A stretch of 32,202 bases of DNA from Comamonas sp. lk (GTDB lineage: Bacteria; Pseudomonadota; Gammaproteobacteria; Burkholderiales; Burkholderiaceae_C): contig CALPLW020000008.1 in assembly GCA_943324505.2 (NCBI GenBank), positions 1 through 32,202 on the forward strand. The letters run 5' to 3'. Of the stretch, positions 1 through 13,112 are shown piece by piece. The notes below the pieces were generated by a model that did not search any database, had not been told where the DNA came from, and was given only the letters and a program-made list of their open reading frames with translations. The position numbers were made by a program, and so were the translations under genes. How positions within the stretch are numbered: position 1 is the stretch's first letter; every line of letters starts with the position of its first letter.

Positions 1-561
1 CCGACAAAACAGGCGTTCGACCCGGGCCAAGGCGATCGGGTTCACGTTCCAGGTGTCGCCGCTCAAGTAGGTCACATGCTCCACGGTCATGTCCTGGGGT
101 GCATGAAAGCGGTGGTACATGCTTGATGTCAGGCGCAGGGTGATGTAGCTGCCATTCATAAACACATTGGTGTCCTGGCTGGGGCCAAACAGCTCGCTGA
201 TCGAATACGGGAAGCCCTTGGCCTGCAGCACCATGCCATCCACCACGCGACCGCAAGCCCCCACAATGCCGTCGCTGGGGCTGCACAGAACCGCCGGGTC
301 GGGGTCAATGGCGCGCGAACCGGGCACCAGCTCACGGGTAAAGCAGTCATGCAGGCTGGCAAAGTGCTGCTGTCGGGCGTCGCTCAAGTCCAGGTCGGTG
401 AACAGGCGCCAAACCCTGATCGACAAGCGCGCCAGTAGTGGGCTCTTGATGTGACTGAACCAGCCCATCCACCGCGTTAACAGCAAGCGCGGGACCCGGT
501 TGGTGAGCAGAAAGTTGAGGTCTTCCTGGAGAAAAAAACGACGGATCAGATTGGTTTTCAT
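1..561 (-). CDS. psd: Phosphatidylserine decarboxylase, N-terminal part (C-terminus beyond the window)
   Basis: Decarboxylates phosphatidylserine to phosphatidylethanolamine at the inner membrane. Read on the minus strand, the frame stays open to the left edge and gives about 187 residues. Family hallmarks are visible: QEDLNFLLTNRVPR near the N-terminus, CSPSDGIVG in the middle (catalytic-triad Asp), and MYHRFHAP followed by SGDTWNVNPIAL (catalytic His region). The GST-type motif where the pyruvoyl group forms lies outside the window, so integrity cannot be judged. I place the start at the ATG ending at 561 (MKTNLIRRFF). An in-frame ATG at 594 would add 11 residues, and neither has a clear Shine-Dalgarno. 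It is divergent from the aminotransferase at 615 with only 20-53 bases between them. Identity is confident; the start is not. Confidence 0.9.
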   Translation of the reverse strand, partial: MKTNLIRRFFLQEDLNFLLTNRVPRLLLTRWMGWFSHIKSPLLARLSIRVWRLFTDLDLSDARQQHFASLHDCFTRELVPGSRAIDPDPAVLCSPSDGIVGACGRVVDGMVLQAKGFPYSISELFGPSQDTNVFMNGSYITLRLTSSMYHRFHAPQDMTVEHVTYLSGDTWNVNPIALARVERLFCR

Positions 562-565
562 ATGG

Positions 566-594
566 CTGTCAATAAAGTTCGGTACGTTTGTCAT
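566..594 (+). promoter_or_regulatory. Two Pho-box-like half-sites in 11-bp phase, divergent psd/aminotransferase region
   Basis: CTGTCAA at 566-572 and TTGTCAT at 588-594 each match the PhoB half-site CTGTCAT at 6/7 and 6/7, and they lie exactly two 11-bp repeat units apart. The middle unit (577-583) does not match. The position is awkward for the plus-strand gene, because a PhoB promoter here would start transcription at or after the ATG at 615. A role on the psd side or chance are both possible. Confidence 0.25.
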
Positions 595-614
595 ATTTCT
601 ACTTGGAGGATTTG

Positions 615-2261
615 ATGGACAACAGCATGGCTCTTCCCTTATTGGCCCTGGGCGTCCTGGCTTGGGCCCTGCCCAAAGCCAAACGCCGGCTTGAGCTCTC
701 GCGTGCCAAACACCGTTCTCTCGCAGGTCACTCGCGTATTGCCAAGCGCATCGCAGGCCTGTTGCCTGGGTATGCCTATGACGAAGACACCTTCTTCAAC
801 TCGGACAGTGCCGATGGCCCTGTGGTGCAGCGTCGCCGTGACGGCTTTGCCAGGCTGGCCGCCCTGTATGACGCGAGGTATCCCAAAAGTGTCGCAATGA
901 CAGCGAGTGCCCGCAGCATCATTTCGGACATGCAGTTCACAGGGCGGTATCGGGTGCCGTACCAATACACCGATTACCTGACACGCCACATCAAAAGCGG
1001 CAGTTTTCTGCAGTCGTCGCAAGGCGTGACCGTGACTGACCTCGACGGCAATGTCTTTTTTGACCTGACCGGTTCCTACGGCGTCAACCTCCTGGGCTAC
1101 GATTTCTACAAAAGCTGCATCGAGGCCGGCCAGCAAACGGTGCAAGAACTGGGGCCGGTGCTTGGCGCCTACCACCCCTGCGTGCTCGACAACGTGACTC
1201 GGCTTAAACGGATTTCCGGGTTGGACGAGGTGTCGTTTCATATGTCGGGTACCGAGGCTGTGATGCAGGCCGTGCGCCTGGCCCGCTACCACACCGGGCG
1301 CAGCCATCTGGTGCGGTTTTGTGGTGCCTACCACGGCTGGTGGGAAGACGTGCAGCCTGGCCCCGGCAACCCGCTGCCACCGCGCGAAACGCATACCCTC
1401 AAGGACATGGATGAACGCAGCCTGCACGTACTGCGCACCCGAAAAGATATCGCTTGTGTGTTGATCAACCCTTTGCAGGCCTTGAACCCCAATGCACCTG
1501 CGCCGGGCGACTCGTCGCTGGTCGACAGCAGCCGCAAGGTGGCCTACGACCGTGCCGCGTACACCGCCTGGCTGCAGCGCCTGCGGCAAGTCTGCACCGA
1601 GCGCGGCATCGTGCTGATCTTTGACGAGGTGTTTCTCGGGTTCCGGCTGGCTGCGGGCGGCGCGCAGGCCTATTTTGGTGTCCAGGCCGATATGGTGACG
1701 TACGGTAAGACACTGGGCGGTGGCCTGCCGGTGGGTGTGGTCTGTGGCCGTGCTGCCCTGATGAAGCGCTACCGGGAAAACCGGCCGGCTGATATCTGCT
1801 TTGCCCGCGGCACCTTCAATGCCCATCCGTATGTGATGGGCGCAATGCAGGCATTTCTGAATGCCATCGAGACACCGGAGATCCTGGCACTTTACGACGG
1901 CATCGACGAGCGCTGGAACGGCAGGGCGCATCAGCTCAATGCCAGACTTGAACAGCAGGGTTTGCCGGTGCGAGTGGCGAACATGTCGACGGTCTGGACG
2001 GTGTTGTATACCCAACCCTCCCGGTACAACTGGATGTTTCAGTTCTATTTGCGGGCACATGGCTTGGCCTTGAGCTGGGTGGGCAGTGCTCGACTGATCT
2101 TTAGCCTGAACTACACCGACAGTGATTTTGAGGCCGTGGTTCAGGCCTTTGTTGGGGCAGCCAAAGCCATGCAAGATGACGGTTGGTGGGATGGCCCGGT
2201 GCAAAGCAACCAGACCATCCGCAAAAGCATCTTCAGGGAGATGCTGCGCCAACCGCGCTGA
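615..2261 (+). CDS. Class III PLP-dependent aminotransferase with N-terminal hydrophobic segment
   Basis: A 548-residue fold-type-I PLP enzyme of the class III / glutamate-1-semialdehyde aminomutase-like group. Visible motifs are HMSGTEAVMQAVRLAR, CGAYHGWW, IFDEVFLGFR (cofactor Asp) and TYGKTLGGGLPVG with the Schiff-base lysine at about residue 365. The family core begins only near residue 120. Before it are a short hydrophobic stretch (residues 5-20) followed by KAKRR, suggesting membrane attachment, and a segment I do not recognise. The ATG at 615 is chosen because GGAGG lies at 605-609; an in-frame ATG at 588 has no such site. The substrate is unknown. Its place beside psd and a glycosyltransferase suggests an amine-containing lipid or lipid head group, but that is inference. 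A heme-pathway hemL role is unlikely given the extra N-terminus and context. Confidence 0.85.
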   Translation: MDNSMALPLLALGVLAWALPKAKRRLELSRAKHRSLAGHSRIAKRIAGLLPGYAYDEDTFFNSDSADGPVVQRRRDGFARLAALYDARYPKSVAMTASARSIISDMQFTGRYRVPYQYTDYLTRHIKSGSFLQSSQGVTVTDLDGNVFFDLTGSYGVNLLGYDFYKSCIEAGQQTVQELGPVLGAYHPCVLDNVTRLKRISGLDEVSFHMSGTEAVMQAVRLARYHTGRSHLVRFCGAYHGWWEDVQPGPGNPLPPRETHTLKDMDERSLHVLRTRKDIACVLINPLQALNPNAPAPGDSSLVDSSRKVAYDRAAYTAWLQRLRQVCTERGIVLIFDEVFLGFRLAAGGAQAYFGVQADMVTYGKTLGGGLPVGVVCGRAALMKRYRENRPADICFARGTFNAHPYVMGAMQAFLNAIETPEILALYDGIDERWNGRAHQLNARLEQQGLPVRVANMSTVWTVLYTQPSRYNWMFQFYLRAHGLALSWVGSARLIFSLNYTDSDFEAVVQAFVGAAKAMQDDGWWDGPVQSNQTIRKSIFREMLRQPR

Positions 2262-2284
2262 GCAACGACGGGTCAGCGCAACAG

Positions 2285-2893
2285 TCACCGATGACGCGCA
2301 TGCGTCATCGGGTCGATCAGTTCGCCGCGCAGCAGGGCGAGGGGCGCCTTGTGATAGAGCATGATGTCGTGGAACGGGTCAGTGATGATCTTGCTGGCCC
2401 AGACAATCCCGGTCCACAGGTCTTGCTGCGCCCAAAGCTGGCATACGCGGAACAACAGGCCGGCCACGCCCAGAGCCAGCCAGGCGATGCCTACGTCGTG
2501 CAAAAACTCCAGCCAGTTGCCCGCAGGCGCAATTTGACCGAACAAGGTGGGCTGCAGCCAAAGCACCACGGGCGCGGCGGCCCAGACTGCCAGCAAAACA
2601 ATCTTGCGCCGAATGTTGTAGCCAATCTTGATCGCCTCTTTGTGCTCGTCGGTGGCTTGATTAACCTCGTCATAACCGCGTGGCTCAAAAAAGAAGTGAC
2701 CGGCTTGGCGGCTGGTCATAGACACCGACCATGCAAGCAAGGCGGCCCATGCTGGCTCAATGAACAGCAAGACGTAAGAGATAACAAAAACGATTGCGCT
2801 CAGCAGATGCAAACTTTGGTTAATGCGGCTGTGGTGGTAATAACGGTGGTCGTCCCAACGTTGCGTCTTGAGCTCTTGCAAATAGCGGTTCAT
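2285..2893 (-). CDS. Small integral membrane protein, Mpo1/DUF962-like
   Basis: A 202-residue protein with an HH-SRINQSLHLLS segment (His16, His20, His21, His29), a hydrophobic stretch, then RQAGHFFFEP (His66) and further hydrophobic segments around residues 97-115 and 130-155. The spaced His / N..LH / GHFFFE pattern resembles the DUF962/Mpo1-like family. Yeast Mpo1 is an Fe(II) dioxygenase of 2-hydroxy fatty acid alpha-oxidation. The resemblance is from memory and partial, so no enzymatic function is claimed. The start at 2893 is preferred over 2917 because GAGGT sits 5 bases upstream. It converges on the aminotransferase gene with a 23-base gap and is divergent from the glycosyltransferase, whose upstream region contains Pho-box-like repeats. 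Confidence 0.7.
   Translation of the reverse strand: MNRYLQELKTQRWDDHRYYHHSRINQSLHLLSAIVFVISYVLLFIEPAWAALLAWSVSMTSRQAGHFFFEPRGYDEVNQATDEHKEAIKIGYNIRRKIVLLAVWAAAPVVLWLQPTLFGQIAPAGNWLEFLHDVGIAWLALGVAGLLFRVCQLWAQQDLWTGIVWASKIITDPFHDIMLYHKAPLALLRGELIDPMTHARHR
2288..2311. terminator. Perfect 10-bp hairpin at the junction of convergent genes
   Basis: CCGATGACGC (2288-2297) and GCGTCATCGG (2302-2311) form a perfect 10-bp stem with a GCAT loop. It sits inside the last codons of the minus-strand membrane protein and 26 bases past the stop of the plus-strand aminotransferase. No T-run follows on either strand, so it is not a textbook intrinsic terminator. A bidirectional 3'-end stabiliser or Rho-linked terminator fits the position. 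Confidence 0.45.
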
Positions 2894-2963
2894 AGCGACC
2901 TCGAAAATAGCGGGCATGGCGCCCGGGGTAATGAAAAAGGCTAGATCACTCTAGCGAGCCAAT

Positions 2964-2981
2964 GTGAAACTCGCATGACAG
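2964..2981 (-). promoter_or_regulatory. Candidate Pho box (minus strand), weak second half
   Basis: On the minus strand the sequence reads CTGTCAT-GCGA-GTTTCAC: a perfect first half-site, correct 4-base spacer, and a second half with 4/7 matches. It lies 71 bases upstream of the 2893 start of the Mpo1-like gene. Confidence 0.35.
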
Positions 2982-3006
2982 CGGGGTTTCATATCAGCGA
3001 ACAGGG

Positions 3007-3024
3007 TTGTCATCATTTTGTTAT
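3007..3024 (+). promoter_or_regulatory. Pho box upstream of the glycosyltransferase
   Basis: TTGTCAT-CATT-TTGTTAT: two 7-bp direct repeats (6/7 and 5/7 matches to CTGTCAT) separated by 4 bases, the standard PhoB arrangement. It ends 22 bases before the ATG at 3047. A PhoB-activated promoter would therefore start transcription close to that ATG, implying a leaderless message or a start further in. Confidence 0.65.
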
Positions 3025-3046
3025 CAAGAGCTGACACCATCCACAA

Positions 3047-4297
3047 ATGGACACTGACGCAAGCTCCGAATTCGAGGTCGATAATTTTCCTGCCCGCCAA
3101 CGGTCATGGCGCGTGGCGGTCGTGACGGAGACTTACCCGCCCGAGGTGAATGGCGTAGCCCTCACCTTGGCGCGACTGGTCGAAGGCCTCAGAAGTGCTA
3201 ACCATGACGTGCAGCTGGTTCGGCCTCGGCAAAGTGAGTCAGACCAGGCAAGTCAAGAGGCACTGCAGCCGGGGTTTCACGAGGTACTGATGCGAGGCCT
3301 ACCTATCCCGAGGTATCCCGAGCTGCGAATGGGTTTACCGTCAAAGGGGGCGCTAATTAAGTTGTGGCAGCTGCGTCGACCTGATGTGGTCCATATCGCC
3401 ACCGAAGGCCCACTCGGCTGGTCTGCTTTAAGGGCAGCCTTGTATTTGAAGCTGCCAATCGCTACCGATTACCGTACCAATTTCCAAAGCTACAGCGCCC
3501 ACTATGGAGTGGGTTTTCTTCATAAGCCCATCATGGGGTACCTGCGCAAATTTCATAACCGGGCACACTGCACCATGGTGCCGACCAAGGCGCTGATGGG
3601 AGCCCTTGCCGCCGCGGGCTTCCACAAGCTCAAGGTGGTCAGTCGGGGCGTTGATACAGCCGCCTTTGACCCGGCACACCGCCAGCAGCTGCTGCGGACC
3701 CAGTGGGGGCTAGACGCCGATGACCTGGCCGTGCTCAGCGTGGGTCGACTCGCGCCCGAAAAAAATCTATCACTGCTGGTTCAGGCCTATGAGGCAATCA
3801 AGCAACGGTTGCCCCGCGCCCGACTGATTCTGGTTGGGCAAGGACCCTTGCGGCAGGCCCTGCAAGCGCAGTGCCCTGACGCCATCTTTGCTGGTCAACT
3901 TCGAGGCAGCGTATTGGCTGCTCACTACGCCAGTGCCGACCTGTTTCTGATGCCTAGCATGACCGAGACCTTCGGCAACGTTACCACCGAAGCCATGGCC
4001 AGCGGCTTGCCGGTGGTCGCCTTCAATGACGCCGCCGCCGCAGAGTGGTTGGTTGATGGCGTCAACGGCCGGGTGGTTGCCTTGGGTGACGCTCAAAGCT
4101 TTGTCTCAGCCGCCGTAGCATTGGCTGAACAGTCCCCAGTGCGTACCCGCCTTGGCCAAGCAGCCCGTCACACGGCCTTACAACTGGACTGGTCGCGAAT
4201 CGTTCAACAGTTTGAGGGTGTGTTGCAGGAAGTAATGCACCAAGCCAACATCAGCGGTGCGGCTGCCGTGGGCCATGATCGGCCTCAGCCGACCTGA
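3047..4297 (+). CDS. GT4-family glycosyltransferase, probably for phosphate-free glycolipid
   Basis: A 416-residue GT-B fold glycosyltransferase. VTETYPPEVNGVA near residues 26-38 is the N-terminal donor/acceptor loop typical of MgtA/SqdX/Agt-like enzymes. SVGRLAPEKNL and ETFGNVTTEAMASG (the E-x7-E nucleotide-sugar site) lie in the C-terminal half. Related enzymes transfer a sugar from a nucleotide donor to diacylglycerol or to another glycolipid, and in several bacteria they replace phospholipids during phosphate starvation. The Pho box at 3007-3024 and the neighbouring LplT gene support that reading. About 22 residues precede the usual family start, and no Shine-Dalgarno is seen before 3047, so a GTG start near 3113 is possible. 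Its last 47 bases overlap the end of the convergent lplT. The sugar and acceptor are not determinable here. Confidence 0.85.
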   Translation: MDTDASSEFEVDNFPARQRSWRVAVVTETYPPEVNGVALTLARLVEGLRSANHDVQLVRPRQSESDQASQEALQPGFHEVLMRGLPIPRYPELRMGLPSKGALIKLWQLRRPDVVHIATEGPLGWSALRAALYLKLPIATDYRTNFQSYSAHYGVGFLHKPIMGYLRKFHNRAHCTMVPTKALMGALAAAGFHKLKVVSRGVDTAAFDPAHRQQLLRTQWGLDADDLAVLSVGRLAPEKNLSLLVQAYEAIKQRLPRARLILVGQGPLRQALQAQCPDAIFAGQLRGSVLAAHYASADLFLMPSMTETFGNVTTEAMASGLPVVAFNDAAAAEWLVDGVNGRVVALGDAQSFVSAAVALAEQSPVRTRLGQAARHTALQLDWSRIVQQFEGVLQEVMHQANISGAAAVGHDRPQPT

Positions 4298-5513
4298 ACG
4301 CGGCCCGGGTTAGTACGGCCATCGCCATAGCGATGGCTACGCCAAACAGGGTCATGAGCGGGCTGATGGGCATGTCCGCTGCAACCAGGGCGGCGTACAG
4401 CCCCAGCATGCACAGCACGCTCAGGTTCTCATTGAAACCTTGCACCGCAACAGAGCGACCGGCGCTCAGCAGAGTGAACCCGCGATGCTGCAGCAGGGCA
4501 TTGAGTGGCACCACCAGGATGCCGCCCACAACACCAACGAAAGCCAGTAACGGTATAGCCACCCACAGCGATGACACTTGGGACACGATGGGCATCATCA
4601 AGCCCAGCAATATGCCGGCCGGTAGGACGCGTCTGGCTTGGTGCAGCACCACCCAGCGTCCGGCCACTGCTGCGCCCACGACCACCCCTACCGCGACTGC
4701 GGCCTGCAAATAGGCGGCTTGGTCCAGCGGTAGGTTCAGCACATCGCCTGCCCATTTCAACACGACAAATTGAAGCGTGGCGCCCAATCCCCAAAAAATT
4801 GTGGTGACTGCCAGCGACAAGCCACCTTCGCGGTCGCGCCAAAGCGTGCGGTTAGCCCGGATGAAGTCGTGGATCAGCACCAGCGGGTCCAGCGAGGTGG
4901 CTGGGTAACGGGCCCCGCTGTGAGGGATCCAGATGTTGAGTAGCCCAGCCACGATGTAGACCAGCAGCAGCAACACCAACGATGGGACCAACCTGGACGT
5001 GCTATCCAGCGCCCCAGATTCAAAGAGGGCATGTAGCTTGTCAAGTACCCCAACGTTCACAAGTACACCGCCCAGCACTGCGCCTAAAAGCGCCGCGCAG
5101 ACCACGGACACCTCCAACCACCCATTGGCACGCACCAGCCGTTGCGCCCCGACCATCTCGGTGATCAGACCGTATTTGGCCGGCGCGTAAGCCGCTGCAC
5201 CCAGGCCTGCAATGGTGAAGGCCAGCAAGGGATTCATACCCAGCAGCAAAGCCACCACGCCCAACATCTTGACCCCATTCATCCACGCCATCAGGCGTGC
5301 TTTGGGAAACGCATCGGCCAATGGCCCAACAAACGGTGCCAGCACCACATAGGAGATCGTGAAAACAAACTTAAGTAGGGGCGCCCACCACACGGGCAAG
5401 CCCTGCTCGGACAAAAGGGCGATGCTGACGATCAATAGCGCGTTATCGGCCAGCGCGGAGGCAAACTGGGCCGCGATGATCAGGTAGAAGCCGGGCGGCA
5501 TGCGGCCGTTCAT
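4251..5513 (-). CDS. lplT: Lysophospholipid transporter, LplT-type MFS protein
   Basis: About 420 residues with roughly 12 hydrophobic segments. The N-terminal half carries AAQFASALADNALL and AAAYAPAKYGLITEMV, closely resembling E. coli LplT (397 residues), which flips lysophosphatidylethanolamine inward for re-acylation. No fused acyltransferase (Aas) domain is present, and no aas gene is in the window. The ATG at 5513 (MNGRMPPGFYL) begins 2 bases after the stop of the upstream ykgJ-like gene, implying one transcript. An ATG at 5501 is an alternative. The role here would be recycling lysophospholipids, consistent with lipid turnover next to psd and the glycosyltransferase. Confidence 0.85.
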   Translation of the reverse strand: MNGRMPPGFYLIIAAQFASALADNALLIVSIALLSEQGLPVWWAPLLKFVFTISYVVLAPFVGPLADAFPKARLMAWMNGVKMLGVVALLLGMNPLLAFTIAGLGAAAYAPAKYGLITEMVGAQRLVRANGWLEVSVVCAALLGAVLGGVLVNVGVLDKLHALFESGALDSTSRLVPSLVLLLLVYIVAGLLNIWIPHSGARYPATSLDPLVLIHDFIRANRTLWRDREGGLSLAVTTIFWGLGATLQFVVLKWAGDVLNLPLDQAAYLQAAVAVGVVVGAAVAGRWVVLHQARRVLPAGILLGLMMPIVSQVSSLWVAIPLLAFVGVVGGILVVPLNALLQHRGFTLLSAGRSVAVQGFNENLSVLCMLGLYAALVAADMPISPLMTLFGVAIAMAMAVLTRAAFRSAEADHGPRQPHR

Positions 5514-5515
5514 AT

Positions 5516-5989
5516 TTAGTCCGGCTTGCGCACCAGGTGAACCACTTGGTAGCTGGGGCAGGCGTAGCGTGCAATGTCGTGTGCGTTCAAGGGAAATGAG
5601 CCGCAATTGGACCATCGGCGAAATGGAGAGTGGTAAATCCCGCATTGGTAGCGTCCGTCACTGATAGGCTCTAAAAACACGCAGCGTTTATCCATGCAGC
5701 AGTTGCCGCACTGAACGCAAGAGCCGGTGATGTCGGCTGGCACTTCGCTGGCTCGGCCCATCACATCCTCAAAGTAATGCAGGGCTGGGCCCTCCCGCAG
5801 CGCCGAAATATGAATGCGCATTTTTTTGATAAAGCCGGCGTAGTCGCGCACGTACTTCCACCGCCCAAAAAGCAGGCTGGCGAACAGAGGCGTCAGCGGC
5901 AACACTGCTGAAAGGCCCCCCAAATAAGCGGTCGCTAACCAAGGGGCGACACGGCTGGAGAAAGCAGATGGCGGAGTGGATGAGCGCAT
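5516..5989 (-). CDS. YkgJ-family cysteine cluster protein with N-terminal hydrophobic segment
   Basis: A 157-residue protein. Residues 15-42 are hydrophobic, consistent with one or two membrane segments. Residues 91-103 hold C-x2-C-x2-CC-x4-C, the CxxCxxCC hallmark of the YkgJ/UPF0153 family, followed by further cysteines at YQCGIYH, SNCGSF and YACPSY. The family is thought to bind metal (zinc or an iron-sulfur cluster), but its biochemical function is not established. It is the first gene of a two-gene minus-strand unit with lplT and has a minus-strand Pho-box-like sequence about 64 bases upstream. A lipid-related redox or modification role is only suggested by context. Confidence 0.75.
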   Translation of the reverse strand: MRSSTPPSAFSSRVAPWLATAYLGGLSAVLPLTPLFASLLFGRWKYVRDYAGFIKKMRIHISALREGPALHYFEDVMGRASEVPADITGSCVQCGNCCMDKRCVFLEPISDGRYQCGIYHSPFRRWSNCGSFPLNAHDIARYACPSYQVVHLVRKPD

Positions 5990-6052
5990 AAATAGTGGCG
6001 TGGTGTCGCCGCCAAAACAGCGGGGTAACTACTTAGATTCTGTGTCGTTCAA

Positions 6053-6070
6053 ATGAACCTTTGATGACGT
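6053..6070 (-). promoter_or_regulatory. Candidate Pho box (minus strand) for ykgJ-like/lplT unit
   Basis: The minus strand reads ACGTCAT-CAAA-GGTTCAT, two half-sites (5/7 and 4/7) with a 4-base spacer, 64 bases upstream of the 5989 start. It lies 15 bases from the plus-strand Pho box, so the two would form a divergent PhoB-controlled region. Confidence 0.35.
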
Positions 6071-6085
6071 ATTTAAGGACACAGC

Positions 6086-6103
6086 CCGTCATTGGCTTGA
6101 CAC
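6086..6103 (+). promoter_or_regulatory. Pho box upstream of phoD-like gene
   Basis: CCGTCAT-TGGC-TTGACAC, half-sites matching CTGTCAT/CTGTCAC at 6/7 and 5/7 with the standard 4-base spacer, ending 59 bases before the ATG at 6163. An extra single half-site CTGTCAC lies at 6130-6136. Confidence 0.6.
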
Positions 6104-6162: not shown

Positions 6163-7755
6163 ATGGACCGTAGAACATTTCTCACAACCAGCACCACTTT
6201 GGCAGGCACCAGTTTGGCTGTGCCAAGTCTGGCGCTGGCTCAGACAGCCACCCCGCTAATCACCCGAGATGCCATGCGGCCACAGATGGCACACGGCATG
6301 CAGTCGGGCGACCCAAAAGCCGACGGCGCCGTGATATGGACACGCAGCGACCGTCCGGCACGGATGTGGCTGGAATGGGCCACCACGGCCAGCTTTAACA
6401 ACCCCACCCGAGTGCGTGGCCCCTATCTGATGGAGGACAGTGATTTCACCGGTCGGGTCGACTTAGTCGGGCTGCCGGCTGGCCAGGAAATTTTTTACCG
6501 CGTGGTGCTGCAGGACCTGCACAACGAGCGAGTCCTGTCTGAGCCCTTGGCCGGTCATTTGCGCTTGCCTTCGATGGCCGGTGCCAAAGCAAGCCGTGAT
6601 GTGCGCTTCACCTGGAGCGGCGACACCGCCGGCCAGGGTTGGGGCATCAATGAAGCCTGGGGTGGCATGAAGATCTATGAGCAGATGCGCAAGGTTAACC
6701 CCGACTTTTTCTTGCACAGTGGTGACACCATCTATGCTGACGGGCCGATCCAGGCCCAAGTCAAGCTGGCAGACGGCACACTGTGGACCAACGTTGTCAC
6801 CGATGAGGTCAGTAAGGTGGCCGAGACTTTGAACGAGTTTCGGGGCCGCTACCGCTACAACCTGATGGACGCTAATGTTCGCCGCATGGCCGCTGATGTG
6901 CCGCAAATCTGGCAGTGGGACGACCATGAGGTGAGCAACAACTGGTCAGACGCCAAGGACGTCAGCGGCGACAAGCGCTACACCGAAAAGAATGTGCCTC
7001 TGTTGGTGGCGCGTGCCACCAAGTCGTTCATGGAGTATGCGCCGCTTCGGCGTACCGCCGACATTGAGAGCGAACGGGTTTATCGCCATCTGCCCCAGGG
7101 CCCGTTGCTGGACCTGTTTGTCGTGGACATGCGCAGTTACCGCGGCCCCAACAGCGCCAACCTGCAAACCATTGAGAACGACGAGAGCGCCTTCATGGGC
7201 CGGCCGCAGATCGCCTGGCTGCTTGATGGCCTTAAGCGTTCCAAGTCCACCTGGAAAGTAATAGCCGCCGACATGCCGCTCAGCCTGCATGTGGGCGACG
7301 GCAAGGATGCGCAGGGTCGTGACCGCTGGGAGGGTTCGGCCAACGGCGATGACGGTGCGCCACTGGGGCGCGAGTTGGAGATTGCCCGACTCCTGCGCGA
7401 AATCAAACGTGCCGGTATCAAGAACGTGGTGTGGCTGACGGCCGATGTGCACTACACCGCCGCCCATTACTTTGACCCAGCCAAGGCCAAGTTCAGCGAC
7501 TTTGCACCGTTCTGGGAATTTGTCTCCGGCCCGCTGAATGCCGGCGGCTTTGGCCCCAACAAGACCGACGCCACCTTTGGTATGCAGGTGATGTACCAGA
7601 AGGCCCCGACCGAAGTAAACGCCCCACCGACCAACGGCATGCAGTTCTTTGGTCAGGTGGATATTGACGCCAAGACCCGCGCCATGACCGTCACCCTGAA
7701 GGACCTAGCCGGCGCCTCGCTCTACGCCAAGACCTTGGCGCCGCAACGAGCCTGA
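6163..7755 (+). CDS. phoD: PhoD-like alkaline phosphatase/phosphodiesterase, Tat-exported
   Basis: A 530-residue secreted metallophosphoesterase that releases phosphate from phosphomono- or diesters outside the cytoplasm. The start at 6163 (MDRRTFL) is chosen because AGGAG lies 6 bases upstream and it places a twin-arginine signal at the N-terminus (RR at 3-4, hydrophobic 13-26, cleavage near ALA-Q). Earlier in-frame starts would include the Pho box. A PhoD N-terminal domain (MQSGDPKADGAVIWTRS) is followed by the metal-binding core: HSGDTIYADGP, QWDDHEVSNNW, and VVWLTADVHYTAAHY towards the C-terminus. Length and motif order match PhoD. It lies directly upstream of phnCDE but a separate Pho box intervenes. 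Confidence 0.92.
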   Translation: MDRRTFLTTSTTLAGTSLAVPSLALAQTATPLITRDAMRPQMAHGMQSGDPKADGAVIWTRSDRPARMWLEWATTASFNNPTRVRGPYLMEDSDFTGRVDLVGLPAGQEIFYRVVLQDLHNERVLSEPLAGHLRLPSMAGAKASRDVRFTWSGDTAGQGWGINEAWGGMKIYEQMRKVNPDFFLHSGDTIYADGPIQAQVKLADGTLWTNVVTDEVSKVAETLNEFRGRYRYNLMDANVRRMAADVPQIWQWDDHEVSNNWSDAKDVSGDKRYTEKNVPLLVARATKSFMEYAPLRRTADIESERVYRHLPQGPLLDLFVVDMRSYRGPNSANLQTIENDESAFMGRPQIAWLLDGLKRSKSTWKVIAADMPLSLHVGDGKDAQGRDRWEGSANGDDGAPLGRELEIARLLREIKRAGIKNVVWLTADVHYTAAHYFDPAKAKFSDFAPFWEFVSGPLNAGGFGPNKTDATFGMQVMYQKAPTEVNAPPTNGMQFFGQVDIDAKTRAMTVTLKDLAGASLYAKTLAPQRA

Positions 7756-7779
7756 AGCTGCTTCAGCATTGACTTAGAG

Positions 7780-7797
7780 CTGTCATAACTTCGTCAT
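7780..7797 (+). promoter_or_regulatory. Pho box upstream of phnCDE
   Basis: CTGTCAT-AACT-TCGTCAT: a perfect first half-site and 5/7 second half with a 4-base spacer. A weaker third repeat, TTGACTT at 7769-7775, is in the same 11-bp phase. GATAAG at 7806-7811 is a plausible -10 element 8 bases after the box, and the phnC ATG is 40 bases after it. This is the strongest Pho box in the window. Confidence 0.72.
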
Positions 7798-7837: not shown

Positions 7838-8707
7838 ATGACCACAGCCATACATATTCGGGCCTTGAGCAAGACCTTCTCCAGCGGCAGACAGGCGCTG
7901 CAAGGCATTGACCTCACCATTCGCGCCGGCGAGATGGTGGCGCTGATTGGTGCGTCGGGGTCTGGCAAGTCCACACTGCTGCGCCATTTGGCGGGCCTGA
8001 TGCCGGCTGATCGGTCAACCGAAAGCCTGATCCAGATTCACGGCCGAACCGTCCAAAAAGCGGGCCGAATTGCCGACGATGTGCGTGATATCCGGTCCGG
8101 TGTCGGTTTCGTCTTTCAGCAGTTCAACCTGGTTGATCGACAGCCTGTGATTGTGAATGTTTTGGTGGGTACCTTGCACCGGGTTCCACTCTGGCGCAGC
8201 TTAATCCGGCGCTTTACGCGGGATGAAGTGGCGCGCGGCGTTTCGGCTCTGCAACGGGTGGGCATCGAAGATTGCCGTAACCAACGAGCGTCGACCTTGT
8301 CGGGTGGCCAACAGCAGCGGGCCGCGATTGCCAGGGCCTTGGTGCAGGGCGCCAAAGTCATTCTTGCTGATGAGCCGATTGCCTCGCTGGACCCAGAGTC
8401 CTCGCGCAAGGTGATGGACATTTTACAGCGCGTCAATCAGGAAGACGGCTGTACGGTGGTCGTCTCCCTGCATCAGGTCAACGTGGCAATCAAGTATTGC
8501 CCACGCACCATTGCGCTGAACCAAGGGCGTGTCGTGTACGACGGCCCATCCACGGCGCTCACCCCTGAGCTTTTGCGCGATCTCTATGGGGCCGAGGCCG
8601 ATGACATCTTGTCGCTCGGAGACCATATTTCGGTGCTGCAGAACGCCAAGCGGTCGTCCCGGTTGGAGCGGCCCTTAGAGCCGGTTGCGTTGACCCAAGC
8701 AGCTTGA
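7838..8707 (+). CDS. phnC: Phosphonate ABC transporter ATP-binding protein
   Basis: A 289-residue cytoplasmic ATPase that powers phosphonate (and related phosphate-ester) uptake with PhnE and PhnD. Walker A is GASGSGKST (38-46), the signature [15 protein letters not shown], Walker [16 protein letters not shown], and an H-loop SLHQVNVA follows. The start has GGGAG at 7827-7831. It is the first gene of phnCDE, 41 bases before phnD, and follows a Pho box. Confidence 0.95.
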
Positions 8708-8748
8708 ACCTCCCCCATCATTACCGCCTGACATTTTAAGGAAACCTC

Positions 8749-9723
8749 ATGTTAAAAAAACTCATCACCAGTTTCGCGGGCGCCACACTGATGGCAGCAC
8801 TGCCGTTGGCTGGTCTGGCGCAGGACTTGAAAGAAATCAATTTCGGCATCATTTCAACCGAGTCGTCTCAAAATCTGAAGTCAGACTGGCAGCCGGTGCT
8901 GGACGATATGGCCAAGAAATTGGGCATGAAAGTCAATGGCTTTTTTGCCTCGGACTACGCTGGCATCATCGAAGGCATGCGCTTCAACAAGGTCCAAGTG
9001 GCCTGGTTTGGCAACAAGTCGGCCATGGAGGCGGTGGACCGGGCTAGCGGTGAGGTCTTTGCACAGATGATCAATGCCGATGGCACATTGGGCTACTACT
9101 CACACCTGATCGTGCACAAGGACAGCCCCATCAAAAGCTTGGACGACATGCTGAAGCAGGGCAAAAATCTGTCTTTTGGCAACGGTGATCCCAATTCCAC
9201 CTCTGGCTTTCTGGTGCCTGGCTACTACGTGTTCTCGCAGAACAACATCGACCCCAAGACCTTCTTCAAGGTGTCGCGTGGCGCTAACCACGAGAGTAAC
9301 GCCCTCGCGGTGGCCAATAAGCAGGTGGATGTTGCGACCAACAACAGCGAAAACCTGGACAAGATCAAAGACAAATTGCCCGGGAAGTTCAACGACATCC
9401 GGGTGATCTGGACGTCGCCGCTGATCCCTTCGGATCCTTTGGTAATTCGCAAAGACATGGCCGAGCCACTCAAGGGCAAGATCAAGGAGTTTTTTTACAG
9501 CTATGGCAAGGGAAGCCAGCAGGAGAAAGACAATCTTTATAAACTTTCCAAGTTGTCGTCTTTTAAGCTATCAACCAATAGCCAATTGATCCCGATTCGG
9601 CAGTTGGAACTGTTCAAAGACCGCAACAAGATCGACGCTGACGCAAGCCTCGCAGCCGCTGACAAACAGTCAAAACTAGCTGACATTGACCGTCAGCTCG
9701 CTGCCTTGGCCAAGAGCCAGTAA
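8749..9723 (+). CDS. phnD: Phosphonate ABC transporter periplasmic binding protein
   Basis: A 324-residue periplasmic ligand-binding protein. Residues 1-24 form a Sec signal peptide (cleavage after LAGLA), preceded by an AAGGAAA ribosome site. The mature protein has the PhnD features INFGIISTESSQNL at its N-terminus, DYAGIIEGMRFNKVQVAWFGN, SFGNGDPNSTSGFLVP and a YGKGSQQEKDN segment. It delivers alkylphosphonates such as 2-aminoethylphosphonate to PhnE. Exact substrate preference cannot be read by eye. Confidence 0.95.
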   Translation: MLKKLITSFAGATLMAALPLAGLAQDLKEINFGIISTESSQNLKSDWQPVLDDMAKKLGMKVNGFFASDYAGIIEGMRFNKVQVAWFGNKSAMEAVDRASGEVFAQMINADGTLGYYSHLIVHKDSPIKSLDDMLKQGKNLSFGNGDPNSTSGFLVPGYYVFSQNNIDPKTFFKVSRGANHESNALAVANKQVDVATNNSENLDKIKDKLPGKFNDIRVIWTSPLIPSDPLVIRKDMAEPLKGKIKEFFYSYGKGSQQEKDNLYKLSKLSSFKLSTNSQLIPIRQLELFKDRNKIDADASLAAADKQSKLADIDRQLAALAKSQ

Positions 9724-9735
9724 CGGAGCGAGCAA

Positions 9736-10539
9736 ATGATTGCACCCGCCAAACCTCTGAGCCCCAGCACGTTGACGGGGCTGCCACGCAACAGCCTGAT
9801 CACGCTGTTGTCTTGGGCGGTATTGTTAGCCTTGCTGGCGGGTTCGTGGCGGGGCGCCGATATGCGACCCTTGGACCTGGTTCGTGACGCTGGCAACATG
9901 GCCACCTATGCAGCTGATTTCTTCCCGCCTAAATTTGCCCAGTGGCCGCTCTACCTGACCGAAATGGTGGTCACGATCCAGATTGCTCTGTGGGGCACGG
10001 TGCTGGCGGTGATTTTTGCGGTCCCGCTTGGGCTCCTGTCCTCGGCCAATATCACCCCGCGTTGGGTGCACCAGCCGGTGCGTCGCTTGATGGATGCGGC
10101 GCGCGCGATCAATGAAATGGTCTTTGCCATGTTGTTCATTGTGGCCGTTGGCCTGGGCCCGTTTGCTGGCGTACTGGCCCTGTTCGTGCACACCACCGGC
10201 GTGCTCGCCAAGTTGTTTTCGGAGGCTGTGGAGTCGATTGATGCCCAACCGGTCGAGGGCATCCGGGCGACTGGTGCGAATGCACTTGAGGAAATCATCT
10301 ATGGGGTGATCCCACAGGTGCTGCCGCTGTGGATTTCCTACTCCCTTTACCGGTTTGAGTCGAACGTTCGTTCAGCATCTGTGGTCGGTATGGTGGGAGC
10401 CGGTGGCATCGGTGTCATTCTTTGGGAGATCATCCGTGGCTTCCAGTATGCTGAAACCTGCGCCGTGATGATCATCATCATCGTGACCGTATCGGTCATT
10501 GACTTGGTGTCCGCGCGCATCCGCAATTCACTGGTTTAA
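9736..10539 (+). CDS. phnE: Phosphonate ABC transporter permease
   Basis: A 267-residue inner-membrane permease with about six hydrophobic segments. The coupling loop [26 protein letters not shown] carries the EAA-type G, and [12 protein letters not shown] plus the C-terminal [13 protein letters not shown] pattern is typical of PhnE. It starts 12 bases after phnD. A single permease gene is present. Its stop codon lies in a 12-bp palindrome that also holds the stop of convergent phnN, with 4 bases of overlap. Confidence 0.94.
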
Positions 10540-11800: not shown

Positions 11801-12555
11801 GGGCGATCTCCCCGCTCAACCACCAGTTGTACACGGTCACCGCAAAAATAGCACTCACCGTATTTGATGGGTACGCTCTCCAGGTCGACATCGGTACTCT
11901 CCACCCACAACAAGGGGCGGCTCGCTGGTTGACCGAGGAGTCGGGCTGTTTCATCGTCAGGCATTTTGGTGCCTATTCGGCTGAGCTTGCGCACATAGTC
12001 TTGCACCCCGAAATGTTTGAGGATATCTGACGTGGGCCGGTCGTTGGTCAGCATGGCCAGCAGGCCGTCAAAGCGTTGCGCCGGGTAGTAGGCGGTGGCC
12101 AGACCAATCGGCTCGTCATTGGCCTCGTTCAGGGTTTGCACCATCAGCGCCGAGCTGCCTTTTGGCAGGCCCAGCGCCTGTGCGGCACGCTCGGGTGCCG
12201 TCACCGCCCGCGCCGTCAGCAGTTGTCGGCCCGGTAACAGGCCCTGTTGCAGCAGGTTTTCATTGAACCGGGTCCGCTGCGTCAGATGGTAGTCCAGTAC
12301 GCCATGCTGCACAAAGGTGCCGCGACCCGCTTCGATGCGAACCAAGCCCTCCAACTGCAGGGCGGCGACGGCCTGGCGCAGGGTATGCCGATTGACACCA
12401 AAGCGCGCCGCAAGCTCTATCTCGCCTGGCATGCGGCCAGTGTCGGCATAGCGTCGGTCCTGGATCTCGGTTTTCAGGGTGTCAGCGATCTGGCGCCAGA
12501 CCGAGACGCCGCGCCGGCGACCCGGCAATGAGGACCGAAATTGTTCCATGGTCAT
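11797..12555 (-). CDS. phnF: GntR-family (HutC-type) repressor PhnF
   Basis: A 252-residue regulator. The N-terminal winged helix-turn-helix is seen in VWRQIADTLKTEI, MPGEIELAARFGVNRHTLRQAV and VRIEAGRGTFV (residues ~17-85). The C-terminal UTRA effector domain contains TLNEANDEPIGLATAYYP and a final LWVESTDVD...VPIKYGE segment. The start is taken as MTMEQFRSS at 12555; a longer reading frame to 12747 would run into divergent phnG and lacks family similarity. Divergent from phnG, it probably represses both directions through the dyad at 12586-12611 and is relieved by a phosphonate-pathway ligand. It is first in the coupled set with DUF1045 and phnN. Confidence 0.9.
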   Translation of the reverse strand: MTMEQFRSSLPGRRRGVSVWRQIADTLKTEIQDRRYADTGRMPGEIELAARFGVNRHTLRQAVAALQLEGLVRIEAGRGTFVQHGVLDYHLTQRTRFNENLLQQGLLPGRQLLTARAVTAPERAAQALGLPKGSSALMVQTLNEANDEPIGLATAYYPAQRFDGLLAMLTNDRPTSDILKHFGVQDYVRKLSRIGTKMPDDETARLLGQPASRPLLWVESTDVDLESVPIKYGECYFCGDRVQLVVERGDRP

Positions 12556-12585
12556 AAATCTTTCATGTTGGCGCGGTGAACTAGG

Positions 12586-12611: not shown

Positions 12612-12647
12612 ATGCCCAGCAATCTACCCACTGATTTAGACATCTGT

Positions 12648-13112
12648 ATGACAACTGAGTTACCTGTCCAAAAACAAGCCAGCCGACCGGCCTGGCTGGC
12701 CGTGCTGGCTCGCGCCAGTCAAGAGGACCTCGCGGCCTGTTTGCCAACGCTTGGCCCCCTGCCAGAGGTCCATACCATCAGACCGCCTGAAGTGGGCATG
12801 ATGATGGTGCGTGGGCGTATTGGCGGCACCGGCAACCCGTTCAACCTTGGAGAGGCCAGCGTGGTTCGATGTGCCGTGCGGGTGGGGGAGGGCCCCTTGG
12901 GTGTCTCCTGCGCTCTTGGACGGGACAAGCCTCGCGCCAAACTTGCCGCCCTGTTCGACGCCCTGTTGCAGGACCCGCAGCAACATGACCACCTGCAGCA
13001 GACCCTGATCGAACCCCTGGCGCAGGCGCAACGACAACAGCGCGATTCCCGCCAGCAACAGGCGGCTGACTCCAGGGTTGAGTTCTTCACTCTGGTGCGA
13101 GGCGAATCATGA
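12648..13112 (+). CDS. phnG: C-P lyase complex subunit PhnG
   Basis: A 154-residue subunit of the PhnGHIJ core, which with PhnI and PhnL couples the phosphonate to ribose from ATP. Similarity to E. coli PhnG (150 residues) is clear: RPPEVGMMMVRGRIGGTGNPFNLGE, GVSCALGRDKPRAKLAALFDALLQ and the C-terminal SRVEFFTLVRGES. The start at 12648 (MTTELPV) gives the normal length. An upstream ATG at 12612 would add 12 residues and would sit directly after a hairpin. No strong ribosome site is visible before either. Its stop overlaps the phnH start (ATGA at 13109-13112). Confidence 0.92.
   Translation: MTTELPVQKQASRPAWLAVLARASQEDLAACLPTLGPLPEVHTIRPPEVGMMMVRGRIGGTGNPFNLGEASVVRCAVRVGEGPLGVSCALGRDKPRAKLAALFDALLQDPQQHDHLQQTLIEPLAQAQRQQRDSRQQQAADSRVEFFTLVRGES

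Follow-up and report, generated by a model that had tools for sequence, protein, structure and literature searches.

Do lipid genes that lie next to phosphatase and phosphonate genes form a single phosphorus-saving unit with them? The question is raised by a 32,202-nucleotide stretch of Comamonas sp. lk DNA (the window), contig 8 among the 390 of a genome that is 86.7% complete. It begins with genes for a second phosphatidylserine decarboxylase paralogue (psd2), a class III pyridoxal phosphate (PLP) enzyme (PLP3), an Mpo1-like membrane protein (Mpo1L) and a glycosyltransferase of family GT4 (GT4), which stand before phoD and the phosphonate importer genes phnCDE. The original prediction, made from the sequence of the window, read all of these as one phosphorus-economy island joined by PhoB-type binding sites (Pho boxes), with the PLP enzyme and Mpo1L as possible unrecognised members. 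Comparison with relatives suggests a smaller unit. The first four genes probably make up a lipid-remodelling cassette under Pho control, PlcP-Agt in type and extended by psd2, PLP3 and Mpo1L as a co-inherited trio. The trio is assigned to the cassette because of its co-inheritance and conserved order, a gene fusion, one-strand gene runs and Pho boxes, all drawn from sequence comparison.

The family was sampled with one genome per genus, giving 120 genomes with that of the window included. Nearly full-length PLP3 orthologues, 58–73% identical, are present in 33 of them, the window's genome among these. Beyond the 33, the next match has an E value of 1.6e-47, and others among the matches listed are 26–36% identical. 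Mpo1L is confined to these 33 genomes, with 0/87 others carrying it (sets compared by eye); the Fisher p of this co-occurrence is about 3e-30 when relatedness is ignored. Two psd genes were found in all 33 PLP3 genomes and in 2/87 others (G033 and G048); 82 of the remaining genomes have one psd, and three incomplete genomes have none. psd2 as the sole psd of the window's genome was rejected, as another psd lies on contig C24. GT4 at ≥50% identity is found in 33/33 PLP3 genomes and in a single other (G073), in which ugd and a PlcP-like gene accompany it. Lowering the bar to E≤1e-60 adds a further five of the 87 genomes, at 46–49% identity. Membership of PLP3, Mpo1L and psd2 in a co-inherited cassette is thus well supported by the sequence comparison, and the suggestion that the PLP enzyme and the Mpo1-like protein had gone unrecognised as members has held up.

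Gene order is conserved as well. Among 32 relatives with wide flanks the window order psd2, PLP3, Mpo1L, GT4 is strictly kept in 27; the other five are cut, rearranged, or overlapping at estimated starts. Named genomes were also scanned (E≤1e-3), which gave at least 591 stretches encoding some relative. The 80 named loci used are the best 80 of these, so that the sample leans to near relatives; titles among them include Rhodoferax, Paucibacter, Variovorax, Pelomonas, Methyloversatilis, Zoogloea, Propionivibrio and Accumulibacter. Open reading frames (ORFs) of the loci were called mechanically, and each neighbour cluster was named from a single representative. Duplicate loci L139, L146, L173 and L174 were left out of the counts over 109 and 118 loci, where others may remain; a 113-locus set still contains these four. 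Of the 109 loci, 106 have psd2, 104 Mpo1L, 96 GT4 and 94 all four, 88 of the 94 in window order. Fifteen loci miss a gene, 11 of them at contig ends and four (L060, L152, L175, L178) not. Conservation of the neighbourhood, which had been proposed as a check, therefore holds for the lipid block but not for the genes around it. In the fetched flanks of the 109 loci, window included, lplT (44) and a small Cys-rich ORF (8, all near relatives) are optional, and phoD (4), phnC (7) and phnC, phnD and phnE (6–7 each) are occasional neighbours. phoD and phnCDE were rejected as constant members on these counts, and the single island that included them is not upheld. The lipid block itself is genuine and conserved, and it is probably Pho-controlled. 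PLP3 at 69–70% identity was also seen in L164, a record titled Verrucomicrobia, and in L171, titled Klebsiella pneumoniae; either the bins may be misnamed or the contigs may have been assigned to the wrong bin.

Pho boxes were scored with a cassette-independent matrix of 18 bits, made from the top-scoring pstS upstream site of each of 30 loci in the window's genome and its relatives. Five sites of ≥13 bits were seen in the window against 1.1 expected in first-order Markov sequence, plus one at 12.998 bits. Two of the five overlap one another before phnC at 7769-7797 (+), with 13.4 and 17.0 bits, the 17.0-bit site being 7780-7797. GT4 has a 14.9-bit box at 3007-3024 (+), 40 bases 5' of its start, and the 12.998-bit site lies before phoD at 6086-6103 (+). 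These three predicted boxes were recovered. Two weak overlapping sites precede Mpo1L at 2964-2992 (-), with 11.7 bits (2964-2981) and 9.5 bits. The former had also been predicted and is marginal, yet relatives have stronger sites at the same place. The other proposed minus-strand copy, 6053-6070, scores only 4.5 bits with the pstS matrix and was rejected. A weak Pho-box-like site absent from the original prediction (555-572, +, 11.2 bits) lies 60 bases upstream of PLP3, and half of it falls on a possible psd2 start codon. When the whole genome was scanned with an E. coli-type Pho pattern, ≤3 mismatches allowed, its two strands had 75 and 97 matches; the same pattern reversed had 42 and 33.

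The same matrix was applied to the relatives. For the Mpo1L-GT4 and psd2-PLP3 spacers, the count was confined to loci in which the two genes diverge with no more than 800 bases between them (93 and 101 of 109 loci). A site of ≥12 bits is present in 68/93 Mpo1L-GT4 spacers; 200 column-permuted matrices averaged 1.1 with at most 9, and shuffled spacers averaged 0.8 with at most 3. The proposed scan of window and relatives thus found sites in excess of background in both. A psd2-PLP3 spacer as rich in boxes as that of Mpo1L-GT4 was rejected (2/101 at 12 bits, permuted mean 0.4). Sites directed at individual genes were then counted at ≥13 bits over a span running from 250 bases before the gene start to 30 bases into the gene, with matches of <100 residues dropped. 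In the near loci they precede GT4 in 46/96 (median −40), Mpo1L in 49/101, PLP3 in 21/107 (median −60), lplT in 10/44, phnC in 5/7 and phoD in 1/4, and 60 permuted matrices give means ≤0.4 with a maximum of 3. The corresponding counts in 24 distant loci are 7/24 for PLP3, 5/23 for Mpo1L, 5/18 for GT4 and 1/5 for a methyltransferase. The strongest PLP3 sites have 20.5 bits (L195) and 20.7 bits (L196), both in the same genus; in L237 and L243 the box overlaps the mechanically called PLP3 start. These results support GT4 and Mpo1L as predicted Pho-regulon genes.

PLP3 is found beyond the family in 11/321 genomes drawn from the class (E≤1e-60; G000, the genome of the window, and G114 counted), nine of them from other families, and in 25/398 genomes drawn from the phylum (E≤1e-50; G000, G091 and G114 among them). 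Loci outside the class, which we guess to be Alphaproteobacteria, keep the order psd2, PLP3, Mpo1L. In six of these (L231, L233, L234, L235, L237, L243) Mpo1L comes after a GT4 and a methyltransferase ORF, and in L236, L240 and L241 it comes after a methyltransferase without a GT4 match. The methyltransferases of L231, L233 and L240 are nearest to PmtA at 134–151 bits, below the cut-off of 390. Five loci from three families (L195, L229, L230, L232, L239) have PLP3, GT4, psd2 and Mpo1L all on one strand, and a Pho box heads the run in L195 (20.5 bits) and L230 (15.8 bits). A single reading frame of ~740 residues joins PLP3 to Mpo1L in two genomes of one genus (L197 and L198). The neighbours of the fusion are a DUF3419 protein (346 bits), a methyltransferase, a PlcP-like gene and GT4; DUF3419 we take to be the BtaA family. 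Between GT4 and the fusion lies a small protein with a HAD-like start by eye (L197 7000-7740, L198 11557-12519), and the L197 copy has no NCBIfam match.

If GT4 were the sole Pho-regulon lipid gene, psd2, PLP3 and Mpo1L could be unrelated neighbours by descent. The non-independence of genomes within a family and the lack of a Pho box at psd2 are consistent with such hitch-hiking. It fits poorly with the existence of the fusion, the same gene set in other orders and the boxes that face Mpo1L in close to half of the near loci. Furthermore, in G075 the pairs psd2-PLP3 and Mpo1L-GT4 stand ~15 kb apart and both have been retained. We regard hitch-hiking as highly improbable, and continue with the trio as part of a PlcP-Agt-type cassette.

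PlcP-Agt remodelling with Pho boxes is already established in print. Parts of PMC4796936 describe six contexts in which plcP occurs together with Pho boxes and either glycosyltransferases or btaA/btaB. Excerpts of PMC8528852 report that PlcP, Agt1 and Agt2 of P. aeruginosa make monoglucosyldiacylglycerol (MGDG) and glucuronic acid diacylglycerol (GADG) under low phosphate, and excerpts of PMC9239053 place plcP-agt in methanotrophs. The cassette resembles these systems (Agrobacterium, SAR11, Phaeobacter, Pseudomonas aeruginosa) in its Pho-boxed GT4-type glycosyltransferase, and in the PlcP-like phosphoesterase and ugd that are encoded in the same genome and near the cassette in many relatives. 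The NCBIfam models nearest to GT4, GlcN-PG synthase (139 bits) and MGlcDAG synthase (108), are both far under their cut-offs; these best models act on phosphatidylglycerol or diacylglycerol. A PlcP-like homologue (E≤1e-50) is present in 33/33 PLP3 genomes and 53/87 others. In the window's genome it lies at G000:C57:5015-5722 and shares 84% identity with the PlcP-like protein from L052; Pho-box sites of 13.0 bits before plcP-like and 15.9 bits before ugd were found there (L201). Against LpxH models, whose cut-offs are 134 and 190, the PlcP-like copy of L149 reaches only 44 and 36 bits. Near the cassette in 118 loci, PlcP-like genes occur in 40, ugd in 28, OlsB-like genes in 14 and PPK2 in 10.

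GT4 in L195 and L232 is clearly part of a much longer protein. In L195 (10843-13551), L229 (5374-8109) and L232 (5607-8483) GT4 lies inside a protein of 900–960 residues whose N-terminal part looks by eye like a PHP-type phosphoesterase; Pfam matched the GT4 part alone (L195). This PHP-like part may stand in for PlcP. The OlsB-like ornithine N-acyltransferase (L132 7046-7960 and 13 further loci) scores 150 bits against a cut-off of 350, and the PPK2 gene is found in L167 (8075-9049) and nine more loci. Both neighbours are further signs of phosphorus-related clustering.

Unlike the PlcP-Agt systems, the cassette has psd2, PLP3 and Mpo1L co-inherited with the glycosyltransferase, and none of the three is named in the available parts of PMC4796936 and PMC8528852. 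The word aminotransferase is absent from PMC4796936 and PMC9239053, and decarboxylase from PMC9239053. Among the portion of the literature results that was covered, no title or abstract opening pointed to the trio. Loci L197 and L198, with a DUF3419 gene and a methyltransferase beside the PLP3-Mpo1L fusion, are reminiscent of BtaA/BtaB betaine-lipid synthesis, but neither of these was seen in the cassette of the window, which has psd2 instead.

The nearest solved structure to PLP3 by profile is 6kfm, the AMT domain of mycosubtilin synthase (206 bits); the best glutamate-1-semialdehyde (GSA) aminomutase scores 147. Foldseek likewise placed 6kfm first for the PLP3 model (TM 0.82 on target), with GSA aminomutase next. 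The model (pLDDT 79) has a long N-terminal helix at residues 6–31, a probable membrane anchor. Lys365 and Asp337, catalytic by homology, are invariant in 32 sequences. PLP3 shares its fold, catalytic lysine and surrounding motifs with GSA aminomutase and with the AMT domain of MycA (6kfm, 6kfr); it differs from the MycA domain in its 27% identity, in being free-standing, and in its N-terminal helix and conserved N-terminal region of ~100 residues. PLP3 as HemL was rejected (167.7 bits against the TIGR00713 cut-off of 527.3). The genome has a further match, at C147, of 32% identity. For Mpo1L, 41/43 members match PF06127 at E≤0.01, and the model is helical with pLDDT 90. His16, His20, His29, His66 and Glu70 are invariant in 43 sequences and presumably correspond to the catalytic residues of Mpo1. 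Yeast Mpo1, the PF06127 2-hydroxy fatty acid dioxygenase, is probably akin to Mpo1L in that both are helical membrane proteins in which His and Glu residues are invariant. Mpo1L differs in its sub-cut-off Pfam score, its ~200 residues and its fusion to or co-inheritance with PLP3.

These likenesses bear on the main rival, in which the trio acts on acyl chains instead of head groups. Mpo1L would alpha-oxidise 2-hydroxy fatty acids freed as phospholipids are broken down, PLP3 would convert the keto-acyl chain and psd2 would sustain phosphatidylethanolamine. In mycosubtilin synthase the AMT domain adds an amino group to a beta-keto acyl chain, and yeast Mpo1 performs 2-hydroxy fatty acid dioxygenase chemistry. 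The kept His/Glu motif of Mpo1L, the AMT domain as nearest relative of PLP3 and the frequency of lplT as a neighbour all agree with acyl-chain recycling. Strict co-inheritance of a second decarboxylase and the Pmt-like and BtaA-like neighbours are left unexplained by it, and we consider it unlikely.

The psd2 fragment in the window scores 104 bits with PF02666 (cut-off 22) and 96 with TIGR00163, under the 112 required; a full-length psd2 relative (L040) reaches 145.5 bits with the latter (cut-off 111.75). By family score psd2 appears to be a normal decarboxylase, and the paralogue may have a substrate other than phosphatidylserine. A membrane protein of ~280 residues recurs close to the cassette (L104 8607-9461 and nine further loci, 10/118) and stands beside psd2 in L192 and L194; it matches no Pfam or NCBIfam family.

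PLP3 might instead remove or exchange the amine of phosphatidylethanolamine or phosphoethanolamine for nitrogen or phosphate, with psd2 feeding it. Class III phospho-lyases act in this way. PLP3 has the class III fold, and neighbours related to phosphatidylethanolamine recur (psd2, lplT, PlcP-like, Pmt-like). The best matches of PLP3, however, are AMT and GSA aminomutase, and Mpo1L is given no role. Head-group scavenging is a poor candidate, less plausible than acyl-chain recycling.

Several observations weigh against a Pho-controlled cassette that includes the trio. A Pho box directed at psd2 is seen in 0/106 near and 0/20 distant loci, and 25/93 Mpo1L-GT4 spacers are without a box at 12 bits. 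Fifteen of the 21 near-relative PLP3 sites begin TTTTCA, equally the reverse complement of a psd2 start (ATGAAA/GTGAAA), so coding constraint may explain part of the PLP3 Pho signal. In the distant set 1/200 permuted matrices also gave 7 PLP3 matches (mean 0.1), and two of the one-strand runs (L232, L239) have no 13-bit site at their head. psd2 was not found in the 20 kb of the fused loci L197 and L198, and L204-L206, L208, L210, L223 and L224 show neither psd2 nor Mpo1L within 1.5 kb; wider flanks for four of those seven relatives (L229, L230, L232, L239) contain both genes. The window copy of Mpo1L falls just under its Pfam cut-off (23.5 against 24 bits), and Foldseek of the Mpo1L model gave no solved-fold match at E≤0.001.

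How might the cassette work? GT4 would glycosylate diacylglycerol set free by PlcP, whose candidate gene in this genome lies on another contig beside ugd, the supplier of UDP-glucuronate. psd2, PLP3 and Mpo1L would form a single pathway on membrane lipid head groups. Mpo1L may be an iron oxygenase that prepares a keto substrate for PLP3, PLP3 a membrane-anchored aminotransferase, and psd2 the enzyme that decarboxylates the amino-acid head group so formed; outside the class, relatives may use a Pmt-like enzyme to methylate the amine. Such a pathway would yield a lipid with an amine, able to offset neutral or acidic glycolipids once phospholipids have been withdrawn. Both its substrate and the sequence of its steps are guesses, and doubtful ones.

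The features of the window are collected below. Family matches bear out the predicted identities of psd, the PLP enzyme, the Mpo1-like protein, GT4, lplT, phoD and phnCDE, but the name YkgJ could not be kept for the Cys-rich ORF, for which neither Pfam nor NCBIfam gave a match at E≤0.01.

Features of the window from psd2 to the phosphonate importer, with the family matches behind each name.
Feature	Position	Strand	Match or remark
psd2 fragment, second phosphatidylserine decarboxylase paralogue, 5' part	1-594	-	cut by contig end; start 594 or 561
PLP3, class III PLP enzyme	615-2261	+	PF00202 118 bits (passes gathering score of 30.5)
Mpo1L, Mpo1-like membrane protein	2288-2917	-	PF06127 23.5 bits; start 2917 or 2893
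GT4 glycosyltransferase, Agt-like candidate	3047-4297	+	PF13692 108 bits; PF13439
lplT, lysophospholipid transporter	4251-5501	-	NCBIfam LplT PRK11195 495.7 bits, cut-off 297
Small Cys-rich ORF, YkgJ-like by eye	5516-5989	-	
phoD alkaline phosphatase	6163-7755	+	PF09423 326 bits
phnC, phnD, phnE phosphonate importer	7838-10539	+	TIGR02315, TIGR03431, TIGR01097, all over cut-off

The 3' ends of GT4 and lplT overlap on opposite strands (4254-4297). The family match of lplT is the sole basis for the lysophospholipid recycling that had been suggested. Pho-box sites of 13.5 bits at 12549-12566 (+) and 12637-12665 (-) lie at the head of the next phosphonate gene run, where an ORF at 12612 looks phnG-like by eye.

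Phospholipid replacement at low phosphate shapes bacterial phosphorus use. According to parts of PMC8528852, the same lipid replacement protects P. aeruginosa against a last-resort antibiotic. Our broader proposal is tentative and somewhat more apt to fail than to stand: the trio, joined outside the class by the Pmt-like enzyme, may be an unrecognised PhoB-switched route that runs alongside glycolipid synthesis to an amine-bearing, phosphorus-sparing lipid, probably in hundreds of proteobacterial genomes. If the trio belongs to the phosphate response, widespread and largely environmental Proteobacteria would make a lipid that current gene lists miss. It would also give the Mpo1-like protein and a free-standing AMT-like aminotransferase a bacterial pathway setting.

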